Both the position numbers and the translations under genes were made by a program. Shown piece by piece: positions 341 through 28,184 of a stretch of 64,000 nt of DNA. The first letter of the stretch is position 1; each line of letters opens with the position of its first letter. The stretch covers positions 124,001-188,000 of the forward strand of contig JAQCEA010000003.1 in NCBI GenBank assembly GCA_027620495.1, read 5' to 3'. This stretch comes from Pseudomonadota bacterium (lineage in GTDB: Bacteria; Pseudomonadota; Alphaproteobacteria; Puniceispirillales; Puniceispirillaceae). The notes beneath the pieces are model-generated. The model saw only the letters and a program-made list of their open reading frames with translations, made no database searches and had not been told where the DNA came from.

Positions 341-1216
341 TTAGCTTTGAACATTTTTAACCAACGCCAAAGTCAGTTTGCATAGTTCATTCAAGAGTTC
401 ATCGTCAGACACATTGTTTTCAATAACCTTTACCAGCGGCTGGATGCTCTCTGGACGGTAATCAAGCCCACGGTTTTTTGGCCTAAAGTTTTGATTGATG
501 TCTTTGATGAAGTAGAAAGGTTCTGGCCGCAAATGATCGCCAGCACTAAAACCCACTATTATTTTTTGCCCAGTCGTTTCAGAGGAAAAAGCCGTATATT
601 CAAGGGTAAAAGTTTCTGGCTCGAGCGCTATTTTATTTGGCTGATGCAAGAGAGACTTAATTGGTGCCAACAATGATGGAATACGGTGAAACAAGCGCAC
701 ACTTTTCAACAAAGAAACATGAAGAGCCTCAAGTTCATTGTTGTAAAGGGAAGCGTTATGATCTTGCGTATCACCCATCAGCATAAACGGGGAGTCAAAA
801 GGTAAGGCTGTGGAAAACTTTGATTGGTCTAAATCTCTGTGAAGCAGTTCTACCAAATACCAAGCCTCGGCAAAGGCTGGTGTTCTATCATCAAAACAAA
901 AACTATGCGGAACCTTTACGCCATTTTCACAAAAATATATTTCCAGTTCACGAATATTTAGACCAATTTGAAACTGTTTTTCGAAATAGCGAGTTCGGAA
1001 GTCTTGGGAATCGCCAACCCACAAGAGACTTAGATGCTGGTTTTGTGGCATATCCTCAAGGAAGCTGTTAGCTCCTCTGGCTACCCAAAATAAGGCATTA
1101 TGTGCCTCGACACATGCGTCTCGAAACTGCTTGGTATTAAAGATTTTTGAATCGGGCCAGAATGCTGATTGGCTCAAAGGTATCTCACTTCCAATATAAC
1201 TCTGCAGTCTTACCAC
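341..1216 (-). CDS. Unknown protein, last gene of the oxygenase operon
   Basis: This is a 291-residue protein that I do not recognise. It has no signal peptide, no obvious membrane segment, and no CxxC or clear metal-binding motif. It is rich in aromatic and charged residues, as in a soluble globular protein. The start is a GTG whose codon overlaps the TAA stop of the Rieske ferredoxin gene upstream, so the two are probably translationally coupled. Its position as the last gene of a ferredoxin / beta subunit / oxygenase-reductase operon suggests an accessory, assembly or regulatory role for the oxygenase. That is inference from position alone. Confidence 0.75.
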   Translation of the reverse strand: MVRLQSYIGSEIPLSQSAFWPDSKIFNTKQFRDACVEAHNALFWVARGANSFLEDMPQNQHLSLLWVGDSQDFRTRYFEKQFQIGLNIRELEIYFCENGVKVPHSFCFDDRTPAFAEAWYLVELLHRDLDQSKFSTALPFDSPFMLMGDTQDHNASLYNNELEALHVSLLKSVRLFHRIPSLLAPIKSLLHQPNKIALEPETFTLEYTAFSSETTGQKIIVGFSAGDHLRPEPFYFIKDINQNFRPKNRGLDYRPESIQPLVKVIENNVSDDELLNELCKLTLALVKNVQS

Positions 1217-1608
1217 TCATCGTCGTCATCATCTTCAAAAAAAGTTGATTCATCAATATCGTCGTCTTCATCAAACGCATATTCAAGCTGTTCTGTTACG
1301 TAAACCATGATGTTGTCATCTTCGACTTTGACGTCATAGGTTTTAAGCGGTAGCTCGGCTTCATCTTGAAGCTCTAGAGTCTCTAGGTTCCAGGACCATA
1401 GATGTTTTGTGCAAGTTAGCTTGCATCCGATGACCAACCCGGATTCGTCCAGAGGTTCTTCCAAATGAGGGCAAACCGGGGGAATGGCAACATAGCCATT
1501 TTTGTGGTGCGCAACTGCGATTGGAATGCCCCCGCCTATTCGGGCCCAAACCTTTTTAATTGAACCCACTGGAATTTCGCTCTTTTCACAAACCTTTGTC
1601 CAAGCCAT
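1210..1608 (-). CDS. Rieske-type [2Fe-2S] ferredoxin with a strongly acidic C-terminal tail (MsmC-like)
   Basis: The 132-residue protein has one Rieske cluster motif: CPH in VCPHLEEPL, and CTKH in LTCTKHLWSW, giving the two Cys and two His ligands. A domain of this size and simplicity is typical of the ferredoxins that carry electrons from a reductase to a Rieske oxygenase. Methanesulfonate monooxygenase includes such a component (MsmC). The last ~24 residues are unusual: long runs of Asp and Glu (DEDDDID and EDDDDDEW) form an acidic tail that could dock on a basic patch of the oxygenase or reductase. It lies between the beta-like subunit gene and the unknown 3' gene, which overlaps its stop codon. 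The cluster assignment is firm; the partner assignment is inferred from the operon. Confidence 0.85.
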   Translation of the reverse strand: MAWTKVCEKSEIPVGSIKKVWARIGGGIPIAVAHHKNGYVAIPPVCPHLEEPLDESGLVIGCKLTCTKHLWSWNLETLELQDEAELPLKTYDVKVEDDNIMVYVTEQLEYAFDEDDDIDESTFFEDDDDDEW

Positions 1609-1671: not shown

Positions 1672-2172
1672 TTAAAGGGGCCAATGCGAACCTTTATCAA
1701 GACGTCTGTTGTCAAGCTTTGTCTCACGATTAGTGAATCTAGGAACACCATTAACGATAGAAAATTCGTCAACATATTTTCCGATCACGAAAAGACGGCT
1801 CTCGCCGGAGTCGAGGTGCGAGTTAATACCATCAAGCATATTCTGATATATTGTGACCGAACTAACCGCGGTCGCAGATTTGCCGTCATCTGAAATATCG
1901 ATCGAATAAACCGAGGTGTGTCGATGTAACGGTGAGTGATCAGTATTGTGCTTTGGAAGCATATCCATCAGCCCAATCAACTCTTTTTTATCACCACTAA
2001 AATAAGTCATCTTTTTATTAATTTCTGGGCTGAAAGAGGTGATCGCATATGTAAAGGTCTCGTCACAAAGCTCAAACCACGCCGACCAATTATTTTCGTC
2101 TAACGCGAGAGTTGCTTTATAGATTGTTTTTTCAATTTTTCTTTCCAAATCGAGCATAGAATTATCTTTCAT
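1672..2172 (-). CDS. Aromatic-ring-hydroxylating-dioxygenase-type beta subunit (SnoaL-like fold, MsmB-like)
   Basis: From the preferred ATG the product is 166 residues. That start has a GGAAG about eight bases upstream; the frame is open further, to 2235. Small proteins of this length beginning with a helix (LERKIEKTIYKATLALDENNWSAWFELCDE) followed by strand-rich sequence are typical of the cone-shaped beta subunits of Rieske oxygenases. NRETKL and RLDKGSHWPL near the end fit a strand-rich C-terminus. Beta subunits hold the alpha trimer together and have no redox centre, and none is visible here. The gene ends 64 bases before the ferredoxin gene and follows the fusion gene closely, so it is probably co-transcribed with both. 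Family assignment is by size, composition and context. Confidence 0.7.
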   Translation of the reverse strand: MKDNSMLDLERKIEKTIYKATLALDENNWSAWFELCDETFTYAITSFSPEINKKMTYFSGDKKELIGLMDMLPKHNTDHSPLHRHTSVYSIDISDDGKSATAVSSVTIYQNMLDGINSHLDSGESRLFVIGKYVDEFSIVNGVPRFTNRETKLDNRRLDKGSHWPL

Positions 2173-2247
2173 TGTTTTCTTCCAGTTTGTGTAAGTCTCT
2201 GTTTTTCTGTTAACTAGTGATCGCTCTCTACACACCGAGGAGCAATA

Positions 2248-4620
2248 TCAGGACCGTCCTCCACCACTATCGACAGGTGAATAAGATGGTTTGCTTATTT
2301 GTTTAGGATCAGGAAACCGTTTCGTATCGAGACACTGTCTGGCTTCCATGTACGTTGCCGGGTCATTGACCACTTCGACTGCCACCAGTTCGTCTCCACG
2401 GTAGCTCCAAAATGATACAGCACCGTCACGCTTTCCGGGCCTCTCAACTTGATAGACGCTATCGTCTTGAACAGGCACGATTCCAACAGACTGAAGCTTT
2501 GCATCATATTGATCTGACCAAAACCAGGGGGTTTGTATATTTGGGCTATCTGCGCCTGTGATCGCGGCAGCGGCTATGGCTGCCGTTTCTTGGGCATTGT
2601 GGACTGACTCAACTGCAATATTTTGCTCGCGTCGGAGTGCAACATCCCCAATGGCAAAGATATCTTCATTGCTGGTTTGCATTTCATTGTTAACCAAGAT
2701 AGCCCCGCCATTGCTAAATTGTGTTTCTAAGCCGGCATCTGAGGCAAGCTGGCTATCTGGATAAACGCCGATACCCGTTATCAACATTTCTCCCTCTATA
2801 ACTCTGCCGTCAGATAAGGTCACACTGTGAAAAATTCCGTCTTCTTGGTTAACGCTTTCAACGCCAACGCCGGTAATGACAGTGACACCATTATCCACAT
2901 GTAATTTGTGAAGATGTTCAGCGAGCGGTTTGCTTGCAACTCTGGCAAGAATTCTCTCACCAGCCTCGATCACTGTTATTTCCATTCCTTTTTTGCGAAG
3001 TGACGATGCAACCTCTAGGCCGATATATCCGCCTCCAATAATCACAACCGAGTCTGAATTATTTGCGGTTTGACGGATTGCGTTTGCATCAGCTGGTTGG
3101 CGCAAAACAAAGGCGTTACCTATGCCTTTTGAACTTGGCAATTCCTTTGGAACCGCACCACTTGCGATAACCAACTTGTCATATTTTATAACGTCGCCAT
3201 TGTTGACCGTGATTGTTTTTTCGTCTTTGTCAATTTTGTGAACTGTGCTTTGCGTTTTTAGTCTGACTTTATTGGCTTTGTACCATTTTTTTTGTCTAAG
3301 TAATGACTTTGACTCTACCGATTCGCCGCCACCGAGCAGGAAGCCTTTAGATAATGGTGGACGCTCCATTGGTCCACCGACTTGCTTGTCGAATATTGAA
3401 ATATTGCCAACAAAACCATGCTTGCGAAGCCGGTCGGCCAATGATATGCCCGCGTGACTGGCTCCGATCACCACAACATGTGGTCCAGTGATTGATTCGT
3501 TAGCTTCAAGGCTACTATCTTTGTCCGCACTGTCTTTTTCAGTTATGCGCTGAAGCCCCTCTGGGTGGGTACCCATCCACATTGACCACTCATCCAAATA
3601 ATGTTCTGAAAGAAAATTATTTTCTGAGTTTTCTTGCAAGCCGGTGGCTGGAATCCGAAAGGGGCCATGATTTAGGTTATAATATTTCGCCCGCACATCT
3701 CGATCTGTTTTGCTTTCTCCCTGCGGTGCCAGACCGCGGTGTTCTATCATTATGCGGTTTGTATCTACAGGCGTCACTACCGTTACGTTAAGTACTGGAC
3801 CACTTAAATCAAAAACATAACCGGGAAAAAGATGAACTTTTGTTGTCGCTTTGGAGTCTGGGCTGGGAAAGTCTGTTGACACATTCTGTTTTTTAACGTC
3901 AGCCTCATTTCTGGTGATCGTGCAATGTCCGTAATCGAATACAGCCCCATCTTTTTCGGCGTTCAAAAATTGCAGAGCTTCCGCCTTGTAACCATGTTCA
4001 ACATATTCTTTATGATAGTGAACCACCTCAAGGGGCACAGAATTAAGTTGTTCTTCGATAGCACTAAGCGCAGGTCCGGCCCATTCTTCGAGCATTGAAA
4101 CCGGTTGGTCATTCATATTGACCCAGACGAAACCACCATAATTCACAATACAACGGAGACGCCGAAGCCCCGCGTCATCCTTTGAAAACCTCTCTTGATA
4201 ACCCTCTTTCTCGCGGGCGACATATACACAATTGCCACGCATATCAAATTGCCAAGCATGGAACATGCAGGTAATTCTTTTGGGATTCCCAGATGCCTGA
4301 CCCTCTAGGAAACTACCCTGCGGGCGCCTTTCGATTAACATCCCGCGGTGGGGGCAAACATTTAGAAGTGCGTTGATTTTCCCATCTGGGGCTCTGCATA
4401 TGATTATATTTTCATTGCCAATACTCGCAGTTCTAAAGTCATAGGGCTCTGGCAATTCTGACTCATGGCAGACTGGTACCCAAGCGTTTCTAAATATTTT
4501 GGCCTGCTCCTCGATAAAATCCCGGTCGAGGGGGTTGACCGCTATTTTTTTTGACATGCCTGCCGTGCATTGATCCTGTACGGTCGCATCCGCTTTCGAT
4601 TCAAAGTCCATTAGTTTCAC
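2248..4620 (-). CDS. Fusion of an MsmA-type Rieske domain, lacking the catalytic iron site, to an FAD/NAD ferredoxin reductase
   Basis: The 790-residue protein has an N-terminal Rieske domain with C89, H91, C118 and H121. The 26 residues between H91 and C118 match the unusually long spacing described for methanesulfonate monooxygenase MsmA. The alpha-subunit fold continues to about residue 360, but the mononuclear iron site is gone. Where the partner at 15741 has NSEFYHDFMH, this protein has ALQFLNAEKDG, and the NLHEDLIGV block with the third ligand is also absent. From about 380 onward it is a glutathione-reductase-fold oxidoreductase with an FAD-binding GASHAG, an NAD-binding GGGYIG near 530 and a second FAD motif (IFAIGDVA). 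I infer that NAD(P)H electrons enter the FAD, pass to a Rieske centre and are delivered to the iron of the partner. The start is GTG at 4620 or ATG at 4611. Confidence 0.85.
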   Translation of the reverse strand: MKLMDFESKADATVQDQCTAGMSKKIAVNPLDRDFIEEQAKIFRNAWVPVCHESELPEPYDFRTASIGNENIIICRAPDGKINALLNVCPHRGMLIERRPQGSFLEGQASGNPKRITCMFHAWQFDMRGNCVYVAREKEGYQERFSKDDAGLRRLRCIVNYGGFVWVNMNDQPVSMLEEWAGPALSAIEEQLNSVPLEVVHYHKEYVEHGYKAEALQFLNAEKDGAVFDYGHCTITRNEADVKKQNVSTDFPSPDSKATTKVHLFPGYVFDLSGPVLNVTVVTPVDTNRIMIEHRGLAPQGESKTDRDVRAKYYNLNHGPFRIPATGLQENSENNFLSEHYLDEWSMWMGTHPEGLQRITEKDSADKDSSLEANESITGPHVVVIGASHAGISLADRLRKHGFVGNISIFDKQVGGPMERPPLSKGFLLGGGESVESKSLLRQKKWYKANKVRLKTQSTVHKIDKDEKTITVNNGDVIKYDKLVIASGAVPKELPSSKGIGNAFVLRQPADANAIRQTANNSDSVVIIGGGYIGLEVASSLRKKGMEITVIEAGERILARVASKPLAEHLHKLHVDNGVTVITGVGVESVNQEDGIFHSVTLSDGRVIEGEMLITGIGVYPDSQLASDAGLETQFSNGGAILVNNEMQTSNEDIFAIGDVALRREQNIAVESVHNAQETAAIAAAAITGADSPNIQTPWFWSDQYDAKLQSVGIVPVQDDSVYQVERPGKRDGAVSFWSYRGDELVAVEVVNDPATYMEARQCLDTKRFPDPKQISKPSYSPVDSGGGRS

Positions 4621-4735: not shown

Positions 4736-4922
4736 AGTCTGTGCAAATCAAAACTAGGATTTTTATAGCAGGACGCAACAAGCTTGCATTTAGACTGACG
4801 CGACTAAGCGTCGTTTGGGTTTGGTAGTACAAGAGCTTCTCGTTGTGGGTTGGTACCACGCCGCTCGGAACCGAGAAAGTTTCAACTCAAACTATGTTAA
4901 ACAAACCGATCGGGAGGATCAT

Positions 4923-6029
4923 ATGAAAAACTTTATAACAACTGCCCTTAAAGTGACCGCATCAGCAGCTGTCATCATGGGTGCTACAGCGGCAAACGCG
5001 ACTGTAGATTTTGGTAAGCCAGGTGAAAAGGTAGACCTTGTCATTGGCTATCAGCCCTACTACACAGAGTCATGGACTGGTGTCGTCAACAATGGCAAGG
5101 CCTTTTGGAAAAAGCATCTGCCTGCAGGGTCAACTGCCGAGTTTCAGGTGGGGCTTCAAGGGTCTGTTATTGTGAATGCGATGGCAGGCGAAAAACAGCA
5201 TATTGGTTATATGGGTGATATGCCAGCTATCGCCTCGACATTTAAATATCTGCCAGAGCGCGGTGGCACAGACATTAGGATTGTAGCGGCTCTTGGCACT
5301 TCCAAGCAGCAGTGCAACATATTTCTTGTGCGGAATGACGCGCCTCAGTTCGCCAACGGTGTAGATGCGGTTAAGTGGATGGACGGCAAAGTGACATCCG
5401 CTCCGCATGGCGCATGCACCGACCGGTTTGCGCAGCTTGCGTTTAAATCTGCTGGTATCAAGCCAGCAAAATATCTCAACCAAAACATCGAGGTGATCAC
5501 CACAAACTTCCGTGCCGGAAAGCTAGATGCTGCTGCTATCTGGGAACCTACTGCAACAAAGATGGTGAAATCTGGTATTGCACGCAGAGCCGCCTCTGGT
5601 GAAGATTTTGGCGCGCAAGATGGTGCATTCATGGTGATGTTGAATGACTTAATCCAGCAGCGTCCAGACGTGGTAGAGGCATGGCTGGAAGCCGAATTGG
5701 ATGCCCAGGAGTTTGTTGCAAACCCTGCCAACGCTGATGCGGTTGCCGCTATGGCTGAGGCGCAGACTGAGCAAATTGACCGGGCGACTCTAAAGGCAAG
5801 CCTGTACGATTCACCAATTGCTGGTAGCACTAAGCTCCAGTTGGATTTTGTGATCAGTGATGATGCGAAGTCACTTCTTCGGGACGCCACTGCGTTTTTG
5901 TACAGCCTTGAGAAAAAGCCTGCAGCTGCTCCGCAGATCAGGCCTGAGGGTGTGATGCCAGAGTTCGCTGAACGTGTGCTGGCACGTCGTGGTCTAAAGA
6001 CCCCAGTTGGTCGCGTGGTTGCGCCATAA
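4923..6029 (+). CDS. Periplasmic substrate-binding protein of a sulfonate/nitrate-type ABC importer (MsmE/TauA-like)
   Basis: The 368-residue protein has a clear signal peptide (basic start, hydrophobic stretch, cleavage near ATAANA/TVDF). The ATG at 4923 is chosen because a strong GGGAGG sits six bases before it; the frame is open upstream to 4815 without a better start. The body resembles the NMT1/SsuA/TauA/NrtA binding proteins, for example in KLDAAAIWEPTATKM and VVEAWLEAELDAQEF. It would capture the substrate for the two permeases and two ATPases downstream. The oxygenase operon is divergent, so a small sulfonate such as methanesulfonate is the leading guess. A stable stem-loop follows the stop. 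Confidence 0.85.
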   Translation: MKNFITTALKVTASAAVIMGATAANATVDFGKPGEKVDLVIGYQPYYTESWTGVVNNGKAFWKKHLPAGSTAEFQVGLQGSVIVNAMAGEKQHIGYMGDMPAIASTFKYLPERGGTDIRIVAALGTSKQQCNIFLVRNDAPQFANGVDAVKWMDGKVTSAPHGACTDRFAQLAFKSAGIKPAKYLNQNIEVITTNFRAGKLDAAAIWEPTATKMVKSGIARRAASGEDFGAQDGAFMVMLNDLIQQRPDVVEAWLEAELDAQEFVANPANADAVAAMAEAQTEQIDRATLKASLYDSPIAGSTKLQLDFVISDDAKSLLRDATAFLYSLEKKPAAAPQIRPEGVMPEFAERVLARRGLKTPVGRVVAP

Positions 6030-6042
6030 ATCCTCCAAGAAA

Positions 6043-6073
6043 GTGGGCAGGGCGTCTGATACGTCCTGCCCAC
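6043..6073 (+). promoter_or_regulatory. Intercistronic stem-loop after the binding-protein gene
   Basis: A 12-base-pair stem (GTGGGCAGGGCG pairing with CGTCCTGCCCAC through one G-U) closes a 7-base loop. No T-tract follows. It sits between the binding-protein gene and the first permease. At this position such hairpins commonly block 3' decay or partly terminate, so that the binding protein is made in excess over the membrane parts. Confidence 0.6.
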
Positions 6074-6128
6074 CTCATCAAACACATCAAAATAATACTT
6101 AATTTCACATCGAATTCGGAGACGCGCA

Positions 6129-7010
6129 ATGGGTCAAGTTTCAGCAGCTCGAGAACAATCACACAATAAGCCAGAAGGCATTGAGTTGTTTTTGCTGCGA
6201 TTGAAGAAAAAGGTGTGTAGCGTCGACCCCTATTTAACATTCGCAGGCATCGGATTGTGGCTGTTTGTGTATTGGGTGCTTTGCGAGGGGCTCGAAATAT
6301 GGCGCTTCAACAAGCTGCCAGGCCCGGTTGCGATCTCGAAAGATTGGTTTTCTACGACCCCTTTTCAGGGTATTTCGATATTCACCGAAACTTACTATGA
6401 TCATATTAGGGTGAGTTGCCAGAGAATTCTCATTGCATTTGGGTTAGCCACGGGTCTTGGCGTTCCTCTCGGGCTTTTCATGGGGTGGTCAAGGCCAATC
6501 CGCGACTACATATTTCCAATCATTGAAACACTACGCCCAATCCCTATTTTGGCATGGGTTCCACTCTCAATCCTGTTGCTCCCCGGTTTCGAAGGACCGG
6601 TTATCTTCCTTGCAACATTGGCATCATTTTTTGTCACCACACTTAATGCGATGCTCGGGGTAGATTCAATCGATGAAGAGTATTTTCGAGCAGCGGGCTG
6701 TCTCGGCTCGTCTCGGTGGGATGTGTTTAGGCATGTTGTAGTCCCAGGTGCGTTGCCATTTATCTTTACTGGCCTCCAAATTTCAATTGGCGTGGCGTGG
6801 TTTTCACTGGTGGCAGCTGAAATGGTTTCGGGTGATTTAGGACTTGGTTACTTGATCGTTGACGCTTACATGAACAACGTCACGGTTCCAATGGTTATCG
6901 CGATGATTACTCTTGGATTTATTGGGTATTTTAGCTCTGCCTGCGTGCGCGCGTTAGGTAACAAATTGATGGCGTGGCATGTCAAAGAGTTAGCTCAGCA
7001 AGGCCGTTAA
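6129..7010 (+). CDS. ABC importer permease 1 (SsuC/TauC/NrtB type)
   Basis: The 293-residue integral membrane protein has about six hydrophobic segments. The cytoplasmic coupling (EAA) loop is clear: EEYFRAAGCLGSSRWDVFRHV followed by VVPGALPFIFTG. The N-terminus is longer and more polar (about 35 residues) than in typical SsuC proteins. A second, dissimilar permease lies at 7952, so I expect a permease heterodimer rather than two separate transporters. The gene begins just after the intercistronic stem-loop and precedes the first ATPase gene by about 40 bases. Confidence 0.85.
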   Translation: MGQVSAAREQSHNKPEGIELFLLRLKKKVCSVDPYLTFAGIGLWLFVYWVLCEGLEIWRFNKLPGPVAISKDWFSTTPFQGISIFTETYYDHIRVSCQRILIAFGLATGLGVPLGLFMGWSRPIRDYIFPIIETLRPIPILAWVPLSILLLPGFEGPVIFLATLASFFVTTLNAMLGVDSIDEEYFRAAGCLGSSRWDVFRHVVVPGALPFIFTGLQISIGVAWFSLVAAEMVSGDLGLGYLIVDAYMNNVTVPMVIAMITLGFIGYFSSACVRALGNKLMAWHVKELAQQGR

Positions 7011-7052
7011 TCTTCAAACCCACTTAAATTAAGGTTTTTAGGAAAAAGGATA

Positions 7053-7901
7053 ATGGTAAAAAAATCCCAGAAAAAAGAAAAAACAGGCGCTCTAAGCATC
7101 AAAAATGTCACCAAAATTTATGACCCGTCTGGTGTCAATGTGAAAGCAGTTGATGACTGCTCTATGGAGATAGCTGGCGGTGAGGTGTGTATGATCGTTG
7201 GCCCCTCTGGTTGTGGTAAAACTACCCTGCTGAACGCCATTGCTGGTTTCCATTCGATTACCGAAGGGAGCATCCATCTCGATGGTGAGTTATTGTGTGG
7301 TCCAGGAAAGCCCAAGGCTGAACAAAGTGCTGAGAGAATGGTGGTTTTCCAGCATGGGGCATTGTTTCCGTGGAAAACACTTCAAGAGAATGTGGCCTAT
7401 GGACCTACAGTACAGCGTGCTATGTCGTCTGCTGAAGCTTTAGACAAAGCGGGTCAAATGCTTGCTGAGGCAGGCCTTGGGCAGTTCATAAAGAAATACC
7501 CTGGTGAGGTTTCATCAGGCATGGCACGACGTGCAGAGATTGTTCGGGCACTCATAAACGATCCAAAGGTGTTGCTGCTAGATGAGCCTTATCGGGCGAT
7601 GGACGCCTTGACCAAGCAAATAATGCATGAATCCTTACTTGAGACATATGACCGAACTGGTGTGACGATTTTCTTCATTACACATGATTTGGAGGAGGCA
7701 ATTTTTCTTGGCGATAAAGTTCACGTTGTGACAACACGACCCTGTCAATTGAAAAAGACAGTTGAAGTGAACATCCCGAGGCCGCGCTCATTTGAAACGC
7801 AATCATCAGAGGAATTCAGGCGATTACTTGAGGAAGTCAATGAGGCTGTTCACGAAGAAGCGGTCAAGGCGTTTCAGGCTGGTGAAAGGGAAATGGCATA
7901 A
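7053..7901 (+). CDS. ABC importer ATPase 1, with a degenerate signature motif
   Basis: The 282-residue nucleotide-binding protein is of the nitrate/sulfonate type. Walker A is GPSGCGKTT (about residues 50-58), the Q-loop is VFQHGALFPW, Walker B is VLLLDEP with E178, and the switch histidine is H211 in ITHDLEEA. The ABC signature, normally LSGGQ or LSGGM, reads VSSGM at 153-157, with the first glycine replaced by serine. The partner ATPase at 8817 keeps LSGGM but has lost its switch histidine. Together they would form one full and one degenerate ATP site. The start ATG has AAGGA nearby. Confidence 0.87.
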   Translation: MVKKSQKKEKTGALSIKNVTKIYDPSGVNVKAVDDCSMEIAGGEVCMIVGPSGCGKTTLLNAIAGFHSITEGSIHLDGELLCGPGKPKAEQSAERMVVFQHGALFPWKTLQENVAYGPTVQRAMSSAEALDKAGQMLAEAGLGQFIKKYPGEVSSGMARRAEIVRALINDPKVLLLDEPYRAMDALTKQIMHESLLETYDRTGVTIFFITHDLEEAIFLGDKVHVVTTRPCQLKKTVEVNIPRPRSFETQSSEEFRRLLEEVNEAVHEEAVKAFQAGEREMA

Positions 7902-7951
7902 TTTTTACGGGTGTAAATTAAACATCTCGTCAATAAGGGTAGAAAAACAAA

Positions 7952-8761
7952 ATGAGCACCATTAGCAATTTGTTCGGTAACACAACAGCCCGTCGCGGCA
8001 TTGGATCCTTGATCGGCTTTGTCATAATTTGGCACATAGGCGCGATGATTGATGACTGGACGGGGTATGACCTATTAGGAATTGGGTTAGTGCCCCCACC
8101 GGGCGATGTATTCGCCGCATTTCTGGGTGTGATACCAAAAGCTGGTTATTGGATGAGTTGGGTATCAAGCTTCAGTCGTGTTGTCACGGGGTTCTTAGTT
8201 GCGATGATAATTGGTATTCCATTTGGGTTGATGCTTGCTGTGAACCGATATTTTCGCGGCATATTCTTTCCGCCTTTCGAAATACTTCGCCCAATCCCGC
8301 CTCTTGCGTGGGTTCCAGCGTCTTTGATTTTCTGGCCAACAAACGAAATGTCGATCGCTTTTGTAACCTTTCTGGGTGCATTTTTCACAATTGTGATCAA
8401 TGTGTTGGGTGGCGCGCGTAGTATAGACATCAGCTACTTGCGAGCAGCCCAATCGATGGGGGCAACACAATTTGATTTGTTTTGGAAAATCGTTTTGCCG
8501 GGCACGTTACCCTCAATTTTCACCGGCGCAGCTGTCGGTATGGGTATCACATGGGAAGTTGTTCTCGCGGCTGAGATGATTTCCGGCGGCGGAACCCAAG
8601 GTGGTGGCGGTTTGGGCTTCTTTATATGGAACTCATATATGGGGGGCTCTTTGGAGCAAATTGTTGTTGGCATGATTTCTATTGGTATTGCCGGCTACCT
8701 ATGTTCAAGCGCAATCCGTAAAATTGGATATTATTTTATGCCATGGCGTCGTCTTTTCTGA
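7952..8761 (+). CDS. ABC importer permease 2
   Basis: This 269-residue membrane protein is of the same family as permease 1, with about six transmembrane segments and an EAA loop reading ISYLRAAQSMGATQFDLFWKI followed by VLPGTLPSIFTG. A glycine-rich stretch (GGGTQGGGGLGFF) follows the loop and may contact the partner subunit. It lies between the two ATPase genes. The permease-ATPase-permease-ATPase order after a single binding-protein gene supports one five-component importer. Confidence 0.85.
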   Translation: MSTISNLFGNTTARRGIGSLIGFVIIWHIGAMIDDWTGYDLLGIGLVPPPGDVFAAFLGVIPKAGYWMSWVSSFSRVVTGFLVAMIIGIPFGLMLAVNRYFRGIFFPPFEILRPIPPLAWVPASLIFWPTNEMSIAFVTFLGAFFTIVINVLGGARSIDISYLRAAQSMGATQFDLFWKIVLPGTLPSIFTGAAVGMGITWEVVLAAEMISGGGTQGGGGLGFFIWNSYMGGSLEQIVVGMISIGIAGYLCSSAIRKIGYYFMPWRRLF

Positions 8762-8816
8762 TGGAGTGCGTCGGAAAAAATGAGTGCAACCATAAATCTT
8801 ATTGGTGAGGTTTAAG

Positions 8817-9662
8817 ATGAACCCGAACAAAACAGCGACTAAAACTAGTGAAAGCAAAAATGCCAAGAAGCTGGAGAGTGCTCGTGTGGAAATGAAGGGC
8901 GTCTCAAAGTCATATGGCGAAGATTGGGACGCTGAGGAAGTAATTAAAAACATATCTGTTGATTTTCCAGCAGGGGAACTCACTGTTATTGTTGGTCCTT
9001 CCGGTTGTGGAAAGTCGACACTCGTTAACCTTTTGGCTGGGTTCGAAAAGCCTGATACCGGTCAAGTGACCATTGATGGTGAGATAGTCACAGGACCTGC
9101 AAAGGACCGCATGGTAGTGTTTCAAGAAACGGCATTGATTCCGTGGCAAACCACCCTTGAGAATGTGACTTTTGGACCAAAAATGCGCGGTGACAAACAA
9201 GGCGCATCACTAAACAAAGAAGCTGAGGAACTATTAATTAAAGTGGGCCTTGGTGAGTTTATGCATAAGTACCCCATTCAGCTATCGGGCGGCATGCAGA
9301 GGCGAGCTGAATTGGCAAGAGCGCTTATAAATGAGCCGACTGTTATGATTATGGACGAGCCTTTCCGTGGACTTGACGCGATGTCACGAAGTCTCATGCA
9401 GGAGTTTTTTCTGCAACTTTTTGAGGAAAACCAGAAAACGAATATATTTGTTACCTCAGAAATTGATGAGGCGATTTTTTTGGCTGATAATCTTGTCATA
9501 CTGTCAAATAAACCAACCACTGTTCAAACTGTTATAAAAATTGATCTGCCTCGACCGAGGAACTATAAGATGCTCACTTCGGCCAAGGCATTCAAATACA
9601 GAAAACAAGCGATGGAATTGCTTCATGGTGAGGCAATGAAGAGCTTTGCTGTTTCGAAATAG
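8817..9662 (+). CDS. ABC importer ATPase 2, lacking the switch histidine
   Basis: The 281-residue ATPase starts at the ATG at 8817, preceded by GAGG. Walker A is GPSGCGKST (about 60-68), the signature is a proper LSGGM at 156-160, Walker B is VMIMDEP with E181, and the D-loop is RGLDAM. The H-loop reads FVTSEIDEA, so serine 214 replaces the histidine that polarises the attacking water, and the next residue is Glu rather than Asp. The composite site built from its own Walker motifs and the VSSGM of ATPase 1 should hydrolyse poorly. Its LSGGM completes a full site on ATPase 1. The C-terminal ~25 residues are basic. Confidence 0.87.
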   Translation: MNPNKTATKTSESKNAKKLESARVEMKGVSKSYGEDWDAEEVIKNISVDFPAGELTVIVGPSGCGKSTLVNLLAGFEKPDTGQVTIDGEIVTGPAKDRMVVFQETALIPWQTTLENVTFGPKMRGDKQGASLNKEAEELLIKVGLGEFMHKYPIQLSGGMQRRAELARALINEPTVMIMDEPFRGLDAMSRSLMQEFFLQLFEENQKTNIFVTSEIDEAIFLADNLVILSNKPTTVQTVIKIDLPRPRNYKMLTSAKAFKYRKQAMELLHGEAMKSFAVSK

Positions 9663-9968: not shown

Positions 9969-9993
9969 CATTTAAATTGCAGTGGCTTAGTTG

Positions 9994-10704
9994 ATGATCA
10001 AATTAAATGTTTTTGGCCTATCAAAATTCTATGGAGATAAGCTGGCGCTGGACGATGTAGCTTTTAGTGCAGATGCTGGTGATTTTATTGGATTGCTCGG
10101 CGCAAATGGTGCTGGTAAGTCAACATTAATTAAGTGTTTGTCAGGTGTGCTTACCCCTAGCGGCGGTGATGCAAGGCTAAATGGGCATTCCATTGTGACA
10201 AGCAGAAAGTGGTGCCAACATCAGATTGGCTATTTACCTGAGTCGCCATCTGGTTTTGAAGATTTGACTGTCGCTGAATTTCTCAAATTTTCAGCCACTT
10301 CGCATGGCCTTTCTGGCCGCATTCGCAATCAGTCAGTTTCAAAGGTTTGTGAGGAATTGCAGCTTGATTCAATATTTGGATCGCGGCTGGCTGATTTATC
10401 TAAAGGGTTGAGGCAAAGAGTTTGGCTCGCGCAAGCTCTGGTGCATAATCCACCTATCTTGTTTCTTGATGAACCGACAGACGGTTTGGATCCAGTCCAA
10501 AAAGTTGCGTTGAGGCGTCACATACTCTCAATCGCCAAAAATAAAATTGTTTTGATGTCTACCCACATTCTTGAAGAGGCGGAAGCTATGTGCGGGCGGT
10601 TGTTGATTATGAATGCAGGTCGTATTGTAACGGATGGAGCCATTCAAACCTTTTTGGATCCAGCAGGGCAGCTTGAAAGTTCTGTAATAAATTACGCGAG
10701 TTAG
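9994..10704 (+). CDS. ATPase of a Gld-type ABC-2 transporter (GldA-like)
   Basis: The 236-residue ATPase has Walker A GANGAGKST, signature LSKGLRQRV, Walker B ILFLDEP and switch histidine in STHILEEA. This is the pattern of ABC-2 exporter ATPases such as GldA/CcmA/NatA. The frame opens at a TTG one codon earlier; ATG 9994 is preferred. The next gene encodes a fused GldF-GldG-type membrane protein, so the two form one system. Its role among sulfonate genes is not obvious. Gld-type transporters are widespread outside gliding bacteria, and their substrates are mostly unknown. Confidence 0.85.
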   Translation: MIKLNVFGLSKFYGDKLALDDVAFSADAGDFIGLLGANGAGKSTLIKCLSGVLTPSGGDARLNGHSIVTSRKWCQHQIGYLPESPSGFEDLTVAEFLKFSATSHGLSGRIRNQSVSKVCEELQLDSIFGSRLADLSKGLRQRVWLAQALVHNPPILFLDEPTDGLDPVQKVALRRHILSIAKNKIVLMSTHILEEAEAMCGRLLIMNAGRIVTDGAIQTFLDPAGQLESSVINYAS

Positions 10705-10742
10705 GGTGGCATTGAACTAAAATATCAGAAATGGTCTGACAC

Positions 10743-13301
10743 GTGAGTCCAAGAAATATTCAGATAATTCTTTTTTATGAACTCAATTTGAGAAGTTATT
10801 CTACTTCGACAGCTATATTCATATCTGGTTTTTTAACGCTCTTGACTGTTTGCATCTTTTTTGTCGGGCATTTTCTGGACTCTAATCTTGCGACTTTATC
10901 CCTCCAGTGGACTTTTCTACCGTGGCTGTCGGTTTTTTTTCTTCCAGCACTAGGGATGAGAGCCTTTGGGAGCAAAAAAGTAGCAAGTGATATGAACTTG
11001 CTGTTGTCTTACCCATTTTCACCATTGGAGATTGTTTTAGGAAAGTGGTTATCTGGCTTGATTGTTCTTGGCTTGATGCTGGCTTTCACTTTTCCATTGG
11101 TTATAACAATTGGTTTCTTGGGTGATCCAGATTGGGGCGCCGTATTATCAGGCTATATTGGATCGTTTTTCACGCTTGCCTTGATGTATGCCGTCGCCAT
11201 TTTGTCCAGTGCAATTTCTAAAGACGAAGTTAGTTCCTTTTTACTAGGATCTTGCTCATTGTTTATTCTTGTCATTTTAGATTTTAATTCTCTGCAATTT
11301 ACTTCATTGCCTGAGTTCTTGGAGCAAATAAGTCGCTACACATTCCTTGCGAGCCCGGTGCATTGGCTAGACGAGTGTGCGACAGGAAAATTAAGTCTCT
11401 CATCACTTTTTTATTTTATAGGTCTAACGAGCCTTTGCATTTGCCTTGCTTGTCTGCAACTCAACGGGTATCGGCAAACAACAAAACTAACGTCTTTTTA
11501 TCCTATTGGTGGTGTGATCGGTTTATTTGTTTGTGCTGGGTTGACTGGACTAATAGCCAATTCACTAGACAATTTTGGCTTAAAATTAGATTTAACAGAT
11601 ACTCAGGAATACACGTTTAGTCCTAAGACTCTGGAGCTTGCTCATAACTCCTCACATGGAACAAACATTGAGCTATATATTAGCGCTGATAAAAGTCAGA
11701 TTCCCCTCAAAATTATTAAGCACATGGACCGTGTGGAACGTGCCATAAAAGCGCTTGAGGTGGCCAGCAAAGGAAAAATTTTTGCGTCAGTTAAGAGACT
11801 TCAAGTTGACAGTCGGCAGGCCGATGAAGCGGAAAGCAGGGGCATCATCCGGGTGCCTTTGTCATCTGGAGATGAATTTTACTTTGGCGCAGTTTTCAGC
11901 AATAAAGACCGTTCATTAACATCTGGGTATATAGATTCTGCGCATGCGGCATCGTTGGAATATGACCTTGCCCTCCAGCTCAGCAACCTACAGCGCGCTC
12001 AACCACCAAAGGTGGCTTTACTGTCATCTGTCTTAAAGCCTTCAAATGTAAATTTGCCGCATCCCGGGCTTTCAGTGATAGAAGACCTAAAGCGCCAATA
12101 TGACCTGTCCATCCTTCCTTATTTTGCCGAAGGTTTTGAGGAGGAATATGATGTATTGATTATCTTAGACGCGCCAATCATTCGACAAGCGATGATCAAA
12201 GCCATAGATAAGCATATCCAGTTGGGCAAAAGCGCCATAATAATGCTTGATCCCTTTCAGCGGATGAATGAGGCAAATGCTAGGTTAGACCTTGAAAGCT
12301 CAAAGAACGGAGAAATTAATTCGATTGTCGATCTTTTGAATTTCTATGGAATAGAATTTTCAAAAGATACTGTTATCGGTGACTTTGAAAATGCTACCAG
12401 TGTAGAGACAGGAAATGGCAGAAATTTCACTTATCCATATTGGTTACGATTGCTCAAAACAAACATGGCGAAAGATGAACCTGTTTCGGCAAATCTAAAT
12501 GAACTTTTGTTTGCTGAGGCGGGTTTCTTTGGTGTAGGGAACACGTCACTAAATCTAAAGCCAATCGTCACAACAAGCAGGCAAATCTCAACGACAAATC
12601 GTCGGTTGTTTGGCGCAAAGAGTACACAAGAGCTTGCGATGCAGTTTGCTGGCCAAGAGCAAGAGCCAAAAATTATTGTTGGTAGAGTTAATGATGGATT
12701 GCCTTCGCCATTCGCTGATCAAAATTTTGCCCATCTTGATCTACAGACTTCGTTGGTGCTGGTTGCAGACACTGATTGGCTATATGATGGTTTCAGCAAA
12801 ATTGCTGGAGGCCCAGAGGTTTCGGCAACCTCGAGACCGATAAATGACAACCATGATTTTTTCTTAAATTTGGTCGAACTATCTGTAGGCTCCCAAAGCT
12901 TGACAGAAATTAGATCGAGAAAAAGCCCGGTGAGAGCTTTTACAAAGATTGAAGACATGTTGTTTGAAAGCCGTGAAAAACATCAAGCAAAAGAGGTGGA
13001 ATTTGCCTCAAACATAAATTCGGCCGAAGAGAACATTCGGAAATTTTTCGAATTGGCCAATGTAAGATCGGTAAATGATTTACCTGAAGAGGTCAAAGCT
13101 CAGGTCCTCAAAATTCGAGAAATGATTTATCCACTGAAAAATGAACTCAGAAAAATAAGGCTGCAGATTAGGCAAGAGGTTCATGAACTGTTTCAGATCA
13201 TAACTCTGTTGAATCTCCTCGCTGGACCAGTGTTCTCCTTCATCGCTCTTGTGATCATGCGAATTTCTAGAAGACGCACCCTGCGGCCCCAAATCGGCTA
13301 A
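10743..13301 (+). CDS. Fused ABC-2 permease and GldG-type auxiliary protein
   Basis: The 852-residue protein begins with an ABC-2-type membrane domain of about six segments (residues ~20-270), including the ALGMRAFGSKK and LLLSYPFSPLEIVLGKW coupling region. A large extracytoplasmic-type domain of the GldG/ABC_transp_aux kind follows (~290-800), with a LILDAPIIRQAMIKAIDKHI-like GATase-related segment. A last transmembrane helix (~825-845) and a basic tail end the protein. It is effectively GldF and GldG in one chain. The start is GTG. The stop overlaps the ATG of the GcvT-like gene (TAATG), implying translational coupling. Codon use is AT-rich like its neighbours. Confidence 0.75.
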   Translation: MSPRNIQIILFYELNLRSYSTSTAIFISGFLTLLTVCIFFVGHFLDSNLATLSLQWTFLPWLSVFFLPALGMRAFGSKKVASDMNLLLSYPFSPLEIVLGKWLSGLIVLGLMLAFTFPLVITIGFLGDPDWGAVLSGYIGSFFTLALMYAVAILSSAISKDEVSSFLLGSCSLFILVILDFNSLQFTSLPEFLEQISRYTFLASPVHWLDECATGKLSLSSLFYFIGLTSLCICLACLQLNGYRQTTKLTSFYPIGGVIGLFVCAGLTGLIANSLDNFGLKLDLTDTQEYTFSPKTLELAHNSSHGTNIELYISADKSQIPLKIIKHMDRVERAIKALEVASKGKIFASVKRLQVDSRQADEAESRGIIRVPLSSGDEFYFGAVFSNKDRSLTSGYIDSAHAASLEYDLALQLSNLQRAQPPKVALLSSVLKPSNVNLPHPGLSVIEDLKRQYDLSILPYFAEGFEEEYDVLIILDAPIIRQAMIKAIDKHIQLGKSAIIMLDPFQRMNEANARLDLESSKNGEINSIVDLLNFYGIEFSKDTVIGDFENATSVETGNGRNFTYPYWLRLLKTNMAKDEPVSANLNELLFAEAGFFGVGNTSLNLKPIVTTSRQISTTNRRLFGAKSTQELAMQFAGQEQEPKIIVGRVNDGLPSPFADQNFAHLDLQTSLVLVADTDWLYDGFSKIAGGPEVSATSRPINDNHDFFLNLVELSVGSQSLTEIRSRKSPVRAFTKIEDMLFESREKHQAKEVEFASNINSAEENIRKFFELANVRSVNDLPEEVKAQVLKIREMIYPLKNELRKIRLQIRQEVHELFQIITLLNLLAGPVFSFIALVIMRISRRRTLRPQIG

Positions 13302-15671: not shown

Positions 15672-15740
15672 TAATGTAAATGATAATTGCCGGAAAGTTG
15701 AGTCATCAGGCAAGTGTCATATATTGTTTAGGAGTTGGAA

Positions 15741-16829
15741 ATGGCGCCAAGAAATCACAAAAACTGGCTGAGCACACCTAAAGTCGAATTCATCTCAAGC
15801 GAATGCTACAACAACCACAGCATTTACCAGCAAGAGATTGAACAAATTTTTTCCAAGGTATGGGTTCCAGTTTGCCACAAGAGCGAAATGGCAAATAAGG
15901 GCGATTTTCGGTCTGCTCAGATTGCCCATCAAAACGTGGTTGCGGTGAACAGAGGCGATTTGGTTGAAGCGTTTTTGTGTCCCTCGATCGACCGTCCCTC
16001 AGGTAACGGTATTGACACTGACGGTCTGCAGAAGCTGCACAGCGAAGTCAAGCATGGTGGGATGATCTGGATCACACTGGATCCTAACCCAACGCAGAGC
16101 GTAGAAGAATGGACCTGCGGCGCGTTTGATTGCATCGCAGATGCCATCGATGCTGAAGAGCTAGAGGTGTTTCACTATCACAAAGCAATAATCGACACGA
16201 ATTACAAGCTTTGGCACGACACCAATAGTGAATTTTACCACGATTTTATGCATTATTTTAACCGGGTGTCTGGTTTTAATGATGAATATTTTGCTCGGAA
16301 AAACATCCCATTTGACAATGGCCACGTGAATGTCAGTAGCTTTACTGTAAACTATGAGGAATATGATGGTTTTGAGGATAGGGGCGAATTGTCTTTCCCT
16401 AATCTTCCGCCAAATCAATGGTACATGGTTGATCTGTTCCCTGGCTTTAACTTTAACCTTAGAGGCAGCGCTTATAGAAGTGACAGTGTAACACCTCTTG
16501 GTCCAAACAAAGTGCTTATTGAATTTAGAGGTTATGGCTTAAAGAGTGACTCGGCCAAGGATCGTGCGACTCGAATTAAGCACCATAATTCGATTTGGGG
16601 GCCATTCGGTCGGAATCTGCACGAGGATTTGATTGGTGTTGCTGGCCAAGGCACAACCATGCGAGAGGGTACTGAGGCGCGCAACATATTACATGGGCGC
16701 CACGAGAACTCTACAATCCACGATGAAGTTGGCATGCGTCACTACTACGAGGCATGGGGTAATTTCATGGGAGTGTCACCGGCTAACCCACTTGGCTTGG
16801 CAAGTGAAAGTGTAATGGCTGCTGAATAG
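15741..16829 (+). CDS. Rieske-oxygenase-like catalytic alpha subunit with the mononuclear iron site but no Rieske cluster
   Basis: The 362-residue protein begins at ATG 15741 after GGAG. It aligns by eye with the alpha part of the 2248-4620 fusion: VWVPVCHKSE, HGGMIWITLDPNP, EEWTCGAFD, EVFHYHKA, LFPGFNFNLRG and HHNSIWGPFG all have counterparts. It lacks the block with the four Rieske ligands; only FLCPS remains where the fusion has NVCPH, and the second Cys/His pair is absent. It keeps a mononuclear iron motif NSEFYHDFMH (E164, H167, H171; the H-x3-H spacing is one residue shorter than usual) and a candidate third ligand, D296 in LHEDLIGV. It cannot receive electrons through a Rieske centre of its own. 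I infer it is the catalytic partner of the fusion. Confidence 0.85.
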   Translation: MAPRNHKNWLSTPKVEFISSECYNNHSIYQQEIEQIFSKVWVPVCHKSEMANKGDFRSAQIAHQNVVAVNRGDLVEAFLCPSIDRPSGNGIDTDGLQKLHSEVKHGGMIWITLDPNPTQSVEEWTCGAFDCIADAIDAEELEVFHYHKAIIDTNYKLWHDTNSEFYHDFMHYFNRVSGFNDEYFARKNIPFDNGHVNVSSFTVNYEEYDGFEDRGELSFPNLPPNQWYMVDLFPGFNFNLRGSAYRSDSVTPLGPNKVLIEFRGYGLKSDSAKDRATRIKHHNSIWGPFGRNLHEDLIGVAGQGTTMREGTEARNILHGRHENSTIHDEVGMRHYYEAWGNFMGVSPANPLGLASESVMAAE

Positions 16830-17851: not shown

Positions 17852-18002
17852 GAATGGATCTTTCAAAATGTGTGGACAAAAGTGTTCTGAAAAATTTCAA
17901 CCTTAAATATCTAATCGATAAACTCACGCTTATGTACCACTAGTCAATATGATATCATGGCGCGGACGAAACTCCTAATTCTGTTTGTATCGCGAGTTTT
18001 TC

Positions 18003-18746
18003 ATGCTTCTTTTTGTCGCTTGTTTATTTGGTTTTTTGGCTGGCCTGTTGATTGGTGTTGCTGGTATTGGCGGCGTGATTCTGGTTCCACTTTTGGTGTA
18101 TTTCGCCGGCATTGACATTCACGCTAGCATCGCAGCTTCTGTTGCGTCATTTTTTGTCTCAGGCTTCGTCGGTACTTTTGTTTATTCCCAGAGAGGCGTC
18201 ATTAAATGGGCTGATTTCTTATTAATCAGCATTGGCGCAGTCCCGGGTGCTTTTTTGGGGGCTTGTGCGTTGCCCGCAATCAATGCTGATTTGCTCACGT
18301 TTTTTATAGCGCTTGCTCTTATAATTTCGGCTGCTAGGCAAATAAAAAGTAACAAAAATCTGGAGGCTCAGCTTGTTAGCAAAATTTCAAATCACCGAAT
18401 GGTCTTGATCGGGCTAGTCACGGGGTTTTTGTCTGTCTTGAGTGGTACAGGCGGGCCACTCGTTTTATTGCCGTTATTGACCTGGTTATCAATGCCTTTG
18501 GTAACCGCTATTGGTCTTGCACAGGCTATCCAACTACCGATTGCTGCTTTTGCTACAGTTGGGAATGAACTCAACTCGCTCGTAGATTGGCAGCTAGTGT
18601 TATCTCTGGCTACTGGGCTGGCATTTGGGTCGTTAATCGGCGCAAAAACATCTAAGCACCTGCCAGTAGATCATATTAGGGTTTTGGTTTCCTTTTTGCT
18701 ATTTGGATCAGGGGTTTACATGGTGATTGCTCTGCTTTGGGTTTGA
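18003..18746 (+). CDS. TauE/SafE-family membrane exporter, probably for sulfite
   Basis: The 247-residue protein has about eight hydrophobic segments and the glycine-rich repeats of the TauE/SafE family: GLLIGVAGIGGVILVPLL near the N-terminus and GFLSVLSGTGGPLVLLPLL in the second half. ATG 18003 is preferred; the open frame could start at a TTG at 17985. Family members export sulfite or sulfoacetate during sulfonate degradation, and many have other anion substrates. It is divergent from the LysR gene, with a short palindrome (ATGATATCAT) at 17949-17958 between them. The position supports sulfite export from sulfonate cleavage. Confidence 0.8.
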   Translation: MLLFVACLFGFLAGLLIGVAGIGGVILVPLLVYFAGIDIHASIAASVASFFVSGFVGTFVYSQRGVIKWADFLLISIGAVPGAFLGACALPAINADLLTFFIALALIISAARQIKSNKNLEAQLVSKISNHRMVLIGLVTGFLSVLSGTGGPLVLLPLLTWLSMPLVTAIGLAQAIQLPIAAFATVGNELNSLVDWQLVLSLATGLAFGSLIGAKTSKHLPVDHIRVLVSFLLFGSGVYMVIALLWV

Positions 18747-18917
18747 ACCCTGATTGAACTTCTAATTGATTATAGCCGTGATGATAAAGCTAATAGCAAT
18801 TAAAGATTTTATTTCAGCAAGAAATTGATACCTAATCGAATGTCCAAGCTAGACAAACACTTGGGTGTAAATTTATTTGGCTATGAGACCGCAACAAACT
18901 AACGGGGGAGGACTGGT

Positions 18918-19805
18918 ATGAGTGATACCAAACCAAGACGCAAAGTCACGATTAAAACTTTACAGAAGAAAATGGAAGCCGGAGAGCCAATTACTCAATT
19001 GGCCGCTTATGATTATCGTACAGCTGTTGTAGCTGATCGTCTTGGCATGGATATTTTGTGCGTATCAGATACCGGTGGGATGATTCTTTTCGGCCATCAA
19101 AGTACGACAACGGTTAGCTTTGATGAAGTTATGATGATGTCCAAAGCAATTGACCGCGGCTCGCAATATGGGTTGAGAATGGTTGATATGCCATATTGGA
19201 GTTTCCATGTCTCAAAAGAACAAGCAGTCGAGAATGCTGGCAGGTTCGTACATGAGGCCAATGCAGAAGTTATGAAGTGTGAAGGTAACCGTCACCACGT
19301 GCCAGCGATTGAAGCAATCGTAAATGCCGGTATTCCTGTTCAGGGACATATAGGTATCACACCGATGCGTATGCCGCAGTTAGGGGGGTTTGTCGCGCAA
19401 GGTAAAACGGCTGAACGTGCGAAAGAGCTGATCGACGATGCCAAGGCCATGTATGATGCGGGCTGTTTCTCTATTTTGTGTGAGGTCACTACTTCTGAAG
19501 TCGCGGAGTATCTTGCAGAAATTCTTCCAGTTCCTGTTATCAGTTTGGGTGCCGGAAACTGTGCAGATGGTGTCCACATTATTTCCTCCGATTTATTCCA
19601 TCTCTGGGAAGAGCATGTGCCGAAGCACTCAAGAATTTACACAGACCTTATCCCGATCATGGAAGATGTAATCACTCGGTATATGGACGATGTAAAGACC
19701 AGAAACTACCCTGGGCCTGAAAACACCATTAAAATGCCTGAGGACGAACTTCGTAAGTTTGCCAAAGACATGAAATGGGAAAGAAAATTGGACGAGCTTG
19801 GCTAG
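18918..19805 (+). CDS. PanB-family ketopantoate-hydroxymethyltransferase-like protein in a C1 gene cluster
   Basis: The 295-residue protein has all the expected PanB active-site residues: D51 in VSDTGGM, D90 in VDMPY, K120 and E122 in MKCEGN, and E189 in LCEVT. The later segments GHIGITP and ISLGAGNCADG also match. PanB transfers a hydroxymethyl group from 5,10-methylene-tetrahydrofolate to a 2-oxo acid. A panB used for pantothenate normally sits with panC; this one sits between a sulfite exporter and fhs-folD-folD. It may be a paralogue that uses or releases the C1 unit of methylene-folate. The ATG has GGGGGAGG upstream. Confidence 0.8.
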   Translation: MSDTKPRRKVTIKTLQKKMEAGEPITQLAAYDYRTAVVADRLGMDILCVSDTGGMILFGHQSTTTVSFDEVMMMSKAIDRGSQYGLRMVDMPYWSFHVSKEQAVENAGRFVHEANAEVMKCEGNRHHVPAIEAIVNAGIPVQGHIGITPMRMPQLGGFVAQGKTAERAKELIDDAKAMYDAGCFSILCEVTTSEVAEYLAEILPVPVISLGAGNCADGVHIISSDLFHLWEEHVPKHSRIYTDLIPIMEDVITRYMDDVKTRNYPGPENTIKMPEDELRKFAKDMKWERKLDELG

Positions 19806-19830
19806 TCTTCTTCAATAAAAATCAATTGAT

Positions 19831-19866
19831 ACCCATCAACGCATAAAATTATGAGTGTTGATGGGT
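19831..19866 (+). terminator. Long stem-loop after the PanB-like gene
   Basis: Perfect 10-base arms ACCCATCAAC and GTTGATGGGT enclose a smaller inner pairing (CATAA/TTATG). No clear T-tract follows, so this may be a transcript-stabilising hairpin rather than a strong terminator. Confidence 0.5.
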
Positions 19867-19988
19867 CTTAACTAATATTGCACTAAGGTGGCCAATATAG
19901 TTGGACGCCACATTTGTTGTCTCACATGTGAATCTCTGTGAGTTGGTTTATCCGATAGAAACTTAGACATTTTTTGGGGAGCGTTACG

Positions 19989-21656: not shown

Positions 21657-21676
21657 TTTGCTAAGATCATGGCGTG

Positions 21677-21709
21677 ACTGGCCCCTGTTGTTCTGCGACA
21701 GTGGCCAGT
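21677..21709 (+). promoter_or_regulatory. Intercistronic stem-loop between fhs and folD
   Basis: A 12-base-pair stem with one mismatch (ACTGGCCCCTGT and ACAGTGGCCAGT) closes a 9-base loop in the 90-base gap between fhs and folD. No T-tract follows. It may protect or attenuate the transcript. Confidence 0.45.
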
Positions 21710-21746
21710 TCTAATTACAGTAAACACAATAAAGAAAGCCTATAGT

Positions 21747-22640
21747 ATGTCAGCACAAATTATCGATGGAAAAGCTTTTGCCGCCACTGTCAGACAAAAG
21801 GTCGCCGCAAAAGTGAGCGAACTGAAGACCGCGCATGGCATCACCCCGGGACTGGCCGTGGTTTTGGTCGGCACTGATCCAGCCTCGCAGGTCTATGTAA
21901 GATCAAAAGGCAAGCAGACTGTCCAAGTTGGCATGAATTCTTTTGAACATAAACTTGATGCTGACACATCAGAAGATGTTTTGCTGGACTTAATTGACAG
22001 TTTAAATGCGGATCCAGCGGTGCATGGCATTCTTGTGCAACTGCCACTGCCCGGCCATCTTGATGAAACATTGGTAATTAACCGCATTGCCCCAGAAAAG
22101 GATGTTGACGGTTTTCACATTGCCAATGTTGGGCTTTTGGGAACGGGCCAAAAATCCATGGTGCCTTGTACACCGCTTGGCTGTTTGTTGATGCTGCGCG
22201 ATTATCATGGGTCATTGTCAGGCAAAAACGCGGTTGTGATTGGCCGGTCAAATATTGTTGGCAAGCCCATGGCACAATTGCTGTTGAACGACAGTTGCAC
22301 TGTCACCATCGCCCATTCACGCACCGCCGATTTGCCGGATGTTGTCCGCCGTGCCGATATTGTTGTCGCGGCTGTTGGTCGGCCAGAAATGGTGCCGGGC
22401 GATTGGATTAAGCCGGGGGCCACGGTCATTGATGTTGGCATTAACCGCATTGATATAGAAGATGGCAAAACCAAACTTGTTGGTGATGTGGCGTATGAAA
22501 GCTGTGCGGCCGTTGCTGGGGCCATCACTCCGGTGCCGGGCGGCGTTGGCCCGATGACCATTGCCTGTTTGCTTGCCAATACAGTGACAGCTTGTTGCCG
22601 GATTAACAATCTAACCGATGGTGAAGATTTCTTGTCGTGA
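21747..22640 (+). CDS. folD: Bifunctional methylene-THF dehydrogenase / methenyl-THF cyclohydrolase
   Basis: The 297-residue protein has the canonical FolD active site at E. coli-like positions: Y50 and K54 in VYVRSK, Q98 in VQLPLP and D121 in KDVDGFH. NADP-binding GRSNIVGKP and the C-terminal [11 protein letters not shown] are intact. It interconverts methylene-, methenyl- and formyl-THF, linking any C1 unit from sulfonate or amine demethylation to formate. Its stop overlaps the GTG start of the divergent paralogue (GTGA). Confidence 0.95.
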
Positions 22641-23521: not shown

Positions 23522-23523
23522 TT

Positions 23524-24528: not shown

Positions 24529-24537
24529 GATGCCCAA

Positions 24538-28183: not shown

Positions 28184-28184
28184 C

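Follow-up and report, generated by a model that had tools for sequence, protein, structure and literature searches.

Five adjacent genes in the window, by which we mean the whole 64,000-nucleotide stretch analyzed, would encode a single asymmetric importer of methanesulfonate, driven by two ATPases with complementary defects. In an ABC transporter, one subunit brings the Walker motifs and switch histidine to each ATP site, and its partner brings the signature. In the arrangement we propose, the genes at 4815-9662 specify one complex in which a binding protein joins two unlike permeases and two unlike ATPases; the ATPases would stem from duplication of one ancestral ATPase of the nitrate/taurine/sulfonate (NitT/TauT) type and be able to work only as an obligate heterodimer. 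ATP would be hydrolysed at one site, to which ATPase 1 contributes its Walker motifs and His211 and ATPase 2 its LSGGM. The other, poor site would pair the Walker motifs and Ser219 from ATPase 2 with VSSGM from ATPase 1; it would bind ATP, hydrolyse it slowly or not at all, and serve mainly as a clamp or timer. We assign this reading as a whole a probability of about 0.78.

The loci nearest to the window are named SAR116 or Puniceispirillum, and its source organism is a SAR116-like alphaproteobacterium. The importer operon is transcribed divergently from the genes for MsmB- and MsmA-type proteins (Table 1), and its order of binding protein, permease, ATPase 1, permease and ATPase 2 recurs in nearly all loci of sufficient length, with permease 2 kept in between the two ATPases at syntenic loci. 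The best family matches are of the NitT/TauT type: TauB/NrtCD/SaoA-type ATPases, TauC/SsuC/NrtB-type permeases and an SsuA/NMT1-type binding protein. Both ATPases have PRK11248 TauB, SaoA and ntrCD as their top NCBIfam matches, all under the curated cut-offs, and in the NCBIfam profile search the binding protein falls far short of the SsuA and TauA model cut-offs. The latter protein is 54-96% identical among syntenic loci, and the real start of its gene probably lies downstream of the listed TTG. Solved relatives of permease 1 are CmpB and NrtB. The two genes downstream of ATPase 2 adjoin it in most syntenic loci, and this pair accompanies the importer from SAR116 to Hyphomicrobiales. The whole region is present twice in the source genome, on contigs C45 and C16; protein identity to the second copy (G000:C16:1-19000, L028) ranges from 68 to 96% depending on the gene. 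In one other locus (L002, 3-392), an MsmA-like fragment, in the same orientation as ATPase 1, lies immediately 5' of that gene and is probably a chimera of single-cell assembly.

Table 1. Positions of the importer genes, their diagnostic motifs and the neighbouring methanesulfonate monooxygenase genes in the window, with source-genome ATPase pairs listed by locus
Feature	Position or locus	Strand	Remarks
MsmC-like Rieske ferredoxin	1210..1608	-	PF00355; counterpart of 125 aa ORF in L011
MsmB-like beta subunit	1672..2235	-	conserved in most syntenic loci
R-type MsmA	2248..4620	-	Rieske CPH-X26-CMFH, iron site lost, fused FAD ferredoxin reductase
MsmE-like substrate-binding protein (SsuA/NMT1-like)	4815..6029	+	TIGR01728 and PF13379 matches
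MsmF-like permease 1	6129..7010	+	PF00528; nearest models SaoP/TauC/NrtB
ATPase 1 (MsmG), 282 aa	7053..7901	+	His211 retained, signature VSSGM
ATPase 1 degenerate signature V153-S-S-G-M157	7509..7523	+	VSSG invariant in 23 aligned sequences
ATPase 1 switch His211	7683..7685	+	kept in 26 of 26 sequences
MsmH-like permease 2	7952..8761	+	PF00528, TIGR01183
ATPase 2, 286 aa	8802..9662	+	LSGGM; Ser at switch; TTG start, alternative ATG 8817
ATPase 2 canonical signature L161-S-G-G-M165	9282..9296	+	invariant in 24 aligned sequences
ATPase 2 Ser219 codon TCA replacing switch His	9456..9458	+	25 Ser and 1 Thr of 26
ABC ATPase and ABC-2 membrane/ABC_transp_aux protein, two genes	9991..13301	+	PF00005, PF12679, PF09822
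C-type MsmA	15735..16829	+	iron-site domain intact, Rieske motif deleted; PF00848 only
Source-genome Liv-type ATPase pairs, with recurring signature/switch-His losses	L101, L102, L113, L117, L118		

Both ATPase reading frames and their motifs are as the original prediction had described them: motif loss is complementary, ATPase 1 combining a degenerate signature with the switch histidine and ATPase 2 an intact signature with a serine at the switch. This serine is residue 219 when counted from the TTG at 8802 and residue 214, the number first given, when counted from the ATG at 8817. The remaining motifs are present in both subunits: Walker A (GPSGCGKT in ATPase 1, GPSGCGKST in ATPase 2), the Q-loop glutamine and the Walker B aspartate and glutamate (177-178 and 185-186, respectively). 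Because Walker A, Walker B and the catalytic glutamate are intact, the poor site should still bind ATP, and the 'double-degenerate' site of the original prediction is best taken here to mean poor predicted hydrolysis, not lost ATP binding. A sequencing error as the source of the serine was ruled out by three observations: the second operon copy has identical motif residues, all relatives agree, and turning TCA into a histidine codon takes two or more changes.

Across homologues the two changes go together in every pair (26/26). In the alignment, all 26 ATPase 1 sequences begin the signature with V, have S as its third residue and retain H211; ATPase 2 has the LSGG signature and lacks the switch histidine, again in all 26 (25 Ser, 1 Thr). 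Comparison with the TauB/NrtD family, which had been suggested as a check, sets ATPases 1 and 2 apart: LSGG and histidine are found in 12 of 12 outgroup ATPases of the same family, CmpC, CmpD and NrtD have the canonical SGGM and histidine, and TauB is canonical too. The complementary pattern is far beyond chance. It extends to a genome of another class (G736), whose two ATPases, only 53% and 63% identical to those of the window, form the most divergent pair and carry VSSGL with histidine and LSGGM with threonine. Since threonine replaces serine in that genome, the conserved trait appears to be the loss of histidine and not one frozen residue. In a phylum-wide sample of 378 genomes, ATPase 1 and ATPase 2 occur in the same three. 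The nearest relatives within the class that fall outside the family are about 38-46% identical and have canonical motifs, and a plasmid collection contained only relatives below 60% identity (38-44% among the matches listed). The substitutions are thus conserved in close relatives, and homologues in which each ATPase forms a homodimer with its own permease were not seen. We regard the complementary defects as real, conserved and functionally plausible.

Conserved changes may nevertheless be mild in effect, and an unlikely, though not negligible, alternative is that they are neutral within the heterodimer: Ser219 and VSSGM would permit near-normal hydrolysis, and both sites would fire. Consistent with this, the catalytic glutamate, Walker A and the Q-loop glutamine are intact in both subunits, and a serine at the switch together with a degenerate signature need not abolish hydrolysis, LivF having a glutamine at the switch. 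Likewise, in the exporter MRP1 an H-loop mutation in one site is tolerated with little effect (PMC7756269). However, neutrality sits poorly with complementary changes fixed both in SAR116 and in another class, at positions that are invariant in the outgroups.

The origin of the asymmetric pair can be traced in a maximum-likelihood tree, where ATPase 1 forms one clade (100/100), ATPase 2 another (100/99), and the two are sisters (99/94) with near-parallel branching. Both ATPases also have derived residues in common that are absent in the outgroups (R159/R167, E162/E170, I168/I176 and R181/R189). Because the sister clades branch in parallel, a single duplication of a NitT/TauT-type ATPase, followed by complementary loss, would be the simplest account of how the roles were split, with the caveat that long branches may affect the grouping. 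Separate recruitment of ATPase 1 and ATPase 2 is not favoured by the tree, under the same long-branch caveat.

The alternating order of two permeases and two ATPases might also suggest two importers at one locus, with permease 1 served by an ATPase 1 homodimer, permease 2 by an ATPase 2 homodimer, and a shared binding protein. Single-ATPase operons do occur in the family, as with E. coli TauB. We consider this division improbable: in all 26 pairs an ATPase 1 homodimer would have two bad signatures and an ATPase 2 homodimer would lack the switch histidine, a single binding protein accompanies the two permeases and two ATPases, and the ATPases always co-occur. As either homodimer would have two impaired sites, one asymmetric importer is favoured. 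The single importer with two permeases and two ATPases that the original prediction put forward is therefore supported by co-occurrence in every homologue, and from the motifs we infer that hydrolysis takes place at the good site alone. Assignment of ATPase 2 to the downstream ABC-2-type genes, which its position between msmH and those genes and the absence of an msm letter from its counterpart in Filomicrobium Y might suggest, is very improbable, as it is a NitT/TauT-type protein and sister to ATPase 1, the downstream pair carries its own ATPase, and G736 possesses ATPase 2 with the downstream genes unmatched within the stretch read.

In gene content, order and divergence from the msm monooxygenase genes, the operon is the same as MsmEFGH of Methylosulfonomonas methylovora M2 and Filomicrobium Y (PMC4433239). 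There, the Filomicrobium Y order is given as msmE, msmF, msmG and msmH, then a 'nitrate/sulfonate/bicarbonate ABC transporter ATPase' that has no msm letter, and next two 'ABC transporter' genes (PMC4433239). The correspondence is gene by gene: the MsmE-like gene takes the position of msmE, a NitT/TauT ATPase directly follows msmH, as here, and both downstream 'ABC transporter' genes have counterparts in the window at 9991-13301. Judged by its sequence and arrangement, the operon corresponds to the known methanesulfonate importer msmEFGH together with one ATPase that has no msm letter. MsmG is the sole ATPase named in the published model, and complementary defects are not mentioned in the part of it available (PMC4433239); a literature search covering few subscription journals found no paper describing them in the Msm importer. 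The neighbouring monooxygenase gene is informative as to substrate: a 26-residue Rieske spacer is a marker of methanesulfonate monooxygenase (PMC5068391), and the adjacent MsmA-type protein has such a spacer, in the CPH-X26-CMFH motif at 4258-4356. Because of the msm gene order and this spacer, the importer is most likely one for methanesulfonate, a reading drawn from gene context and the literature on relatives.

Further along the window (17985-29849) lie genes that would handle what methanesulfonate oxidation yields. Among them, a formate-THF ligase and two FolD-like ORFs, recognised by inspection, are enzymes of tetrahydrofolate C1 metabolism, and a set with molybdopterin, 4Fe-4S and DmsC-like members could be the sulfite dehydrogenase SoeABC.

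The original prediction took the arrangement to be unusual for importers, which proved wrong. In E. coli, LivG has LAYGD and histidine, and LivF has MSGGE and glutamine. In B. subtilis, RbsA and NupO are each reported to carry one degenerate site (PMC11466899). A census of the source genome found the switch histidine in 60 of 69 ATPase domains, and all nine domains without it belong to importers with two different ATPase domains: two are the ATPase 2 copies, five are Liv-type and two are CUT2-type fused second domains. These Liv-type and CUT2-type labels are ones we presume from motifs, adjacency and general family knowledge. Four of the five Liv-type pairs are complementary, with LSYGH, LAHGE, LSQGI and LSFGQ signatures in the histidine-keeping partners and LSGGE or LSGGQ in the histidine-less ones, and the fifth shows only the loss of one histidine; in the two CUT2-type fused ATPases, the second domain is degenerate. 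The complementary pattern is new only within the NitT/TauT importer family.

Several named systems help to place the Msm pair. The closest solved relatives are NrtBCD and CmpBCD, nitrate and bicarbonate importers of the same family (PDB 8wm7, 9u9z) that also use two different ATPases per complex. They differ from the Msm importer not only in their canonical motifs: they have one permease type and not two, and CmpC/NrtC are 665-690 aa long, whereas the window ATPases (282 and 286 aa) have no long C-terminal regulatory extension. LivGF offers the same pattern as found here, with two permeases (LivHM) and the catalytic glutamate kept. The window ATPases nevertheless share only 23-29% identity with E. 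coli LivF/LivG, compared with 34-39% for TauB, and do not belong to the Liv family. They would work like the LivGF pair without being members of it, and the two patterns likely arose independently. Heterodimeric type I exporters such as TM287/288, TAP and BmrCD likewise pair a complete composite site with a degenerate one; unlike them, Msm has an importer architecture with separate subunits. Moreover, asymmetric exporters have typically lost a catalytic glutamate (PMC7756269), whereas both are kept here. By this comparison the poor Msm site would be of the LivF kind and not of the exporter kind.

A second division of labour appears in the adjoining oxygenase, where the MsmA alpha subunit seems to be split into two complementary proteins (Table 1). 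Pfam domains in the R-type protein are limited to Rieske and reductase; the C-type has just the catalytic domain, and Filomicrobium MsmA has the Rieske and catalytic domains together. At the residue level, the iron-site segment, which reads WHDTNSEFYHDFMHYHN in full-length MsmA, is missing from the R-type and retained in the C-type, together with a later NLHEDL stretch. The two types co-occur in 14 of 14 genomes with an R-type; one genome that is 72% complete (G090) has a C-type without an R-type. Full-length MsmA is the sole MsmA-type match in three genomes (G128/G856, G552 and G736), from which the split pair is absent. R-type proteins with longer, decayed remnants of the iron site occur in G078 (L055, L136) and in a Magnetovibrio MAG (L018), and these probably represent intermediate stages in the evolution of the split. 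For the C-type protein, the AlphaFold model is poor (mean pLDDT 60.6). We infer a joint function for the pair. A precedent is the caffeine N7-demethylase NdmC/NdmD (PMC4408171), in which the Rieske domain has likewise moved to the reductase and left an oxygenase without a cluster; it differs in its substrate, in having an FMN reductase where the split MsmA has an FAD ferredoxin reductase, and in that the MsmC ferredoxin is retained here. It is reasonably likely that the SAR116 methanesulfonate module comprises two independently evolved pairs with complementary defects, an obligate asymmetric ATPase heterodimer and a split MsmA.

On our reading, ATPase 2 would supply the missing subunit of the methanesulfonate importer. 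The Msm pair would be a natural, conserved asymmetric importer in a family where the ATP motifs of the nearest solved relatives appear symmetric, and would allow one to ask what role the second, non-hydrolysing ATP site plays in importers. More generally, our comparisons suggest a tendency toward the complementary arrangement among importers whose two ATPase subunits differ (Liv, CUT2, Msm), with NrtCD and CmpCD as exceptions. If the split is as it appears, MsmA of SAR116 would be a convergent counterpart of NdmD/NdmC. This would matter to marker-gene studies based on msmA, because in SAR116 the gene's conserved Rieske stretch sits in a protein without the iron site. Methanesulfonate is an abundant sulfur compound of the oceans, and SAR116 is among the most abundant bacterial groups of the surface ocean.
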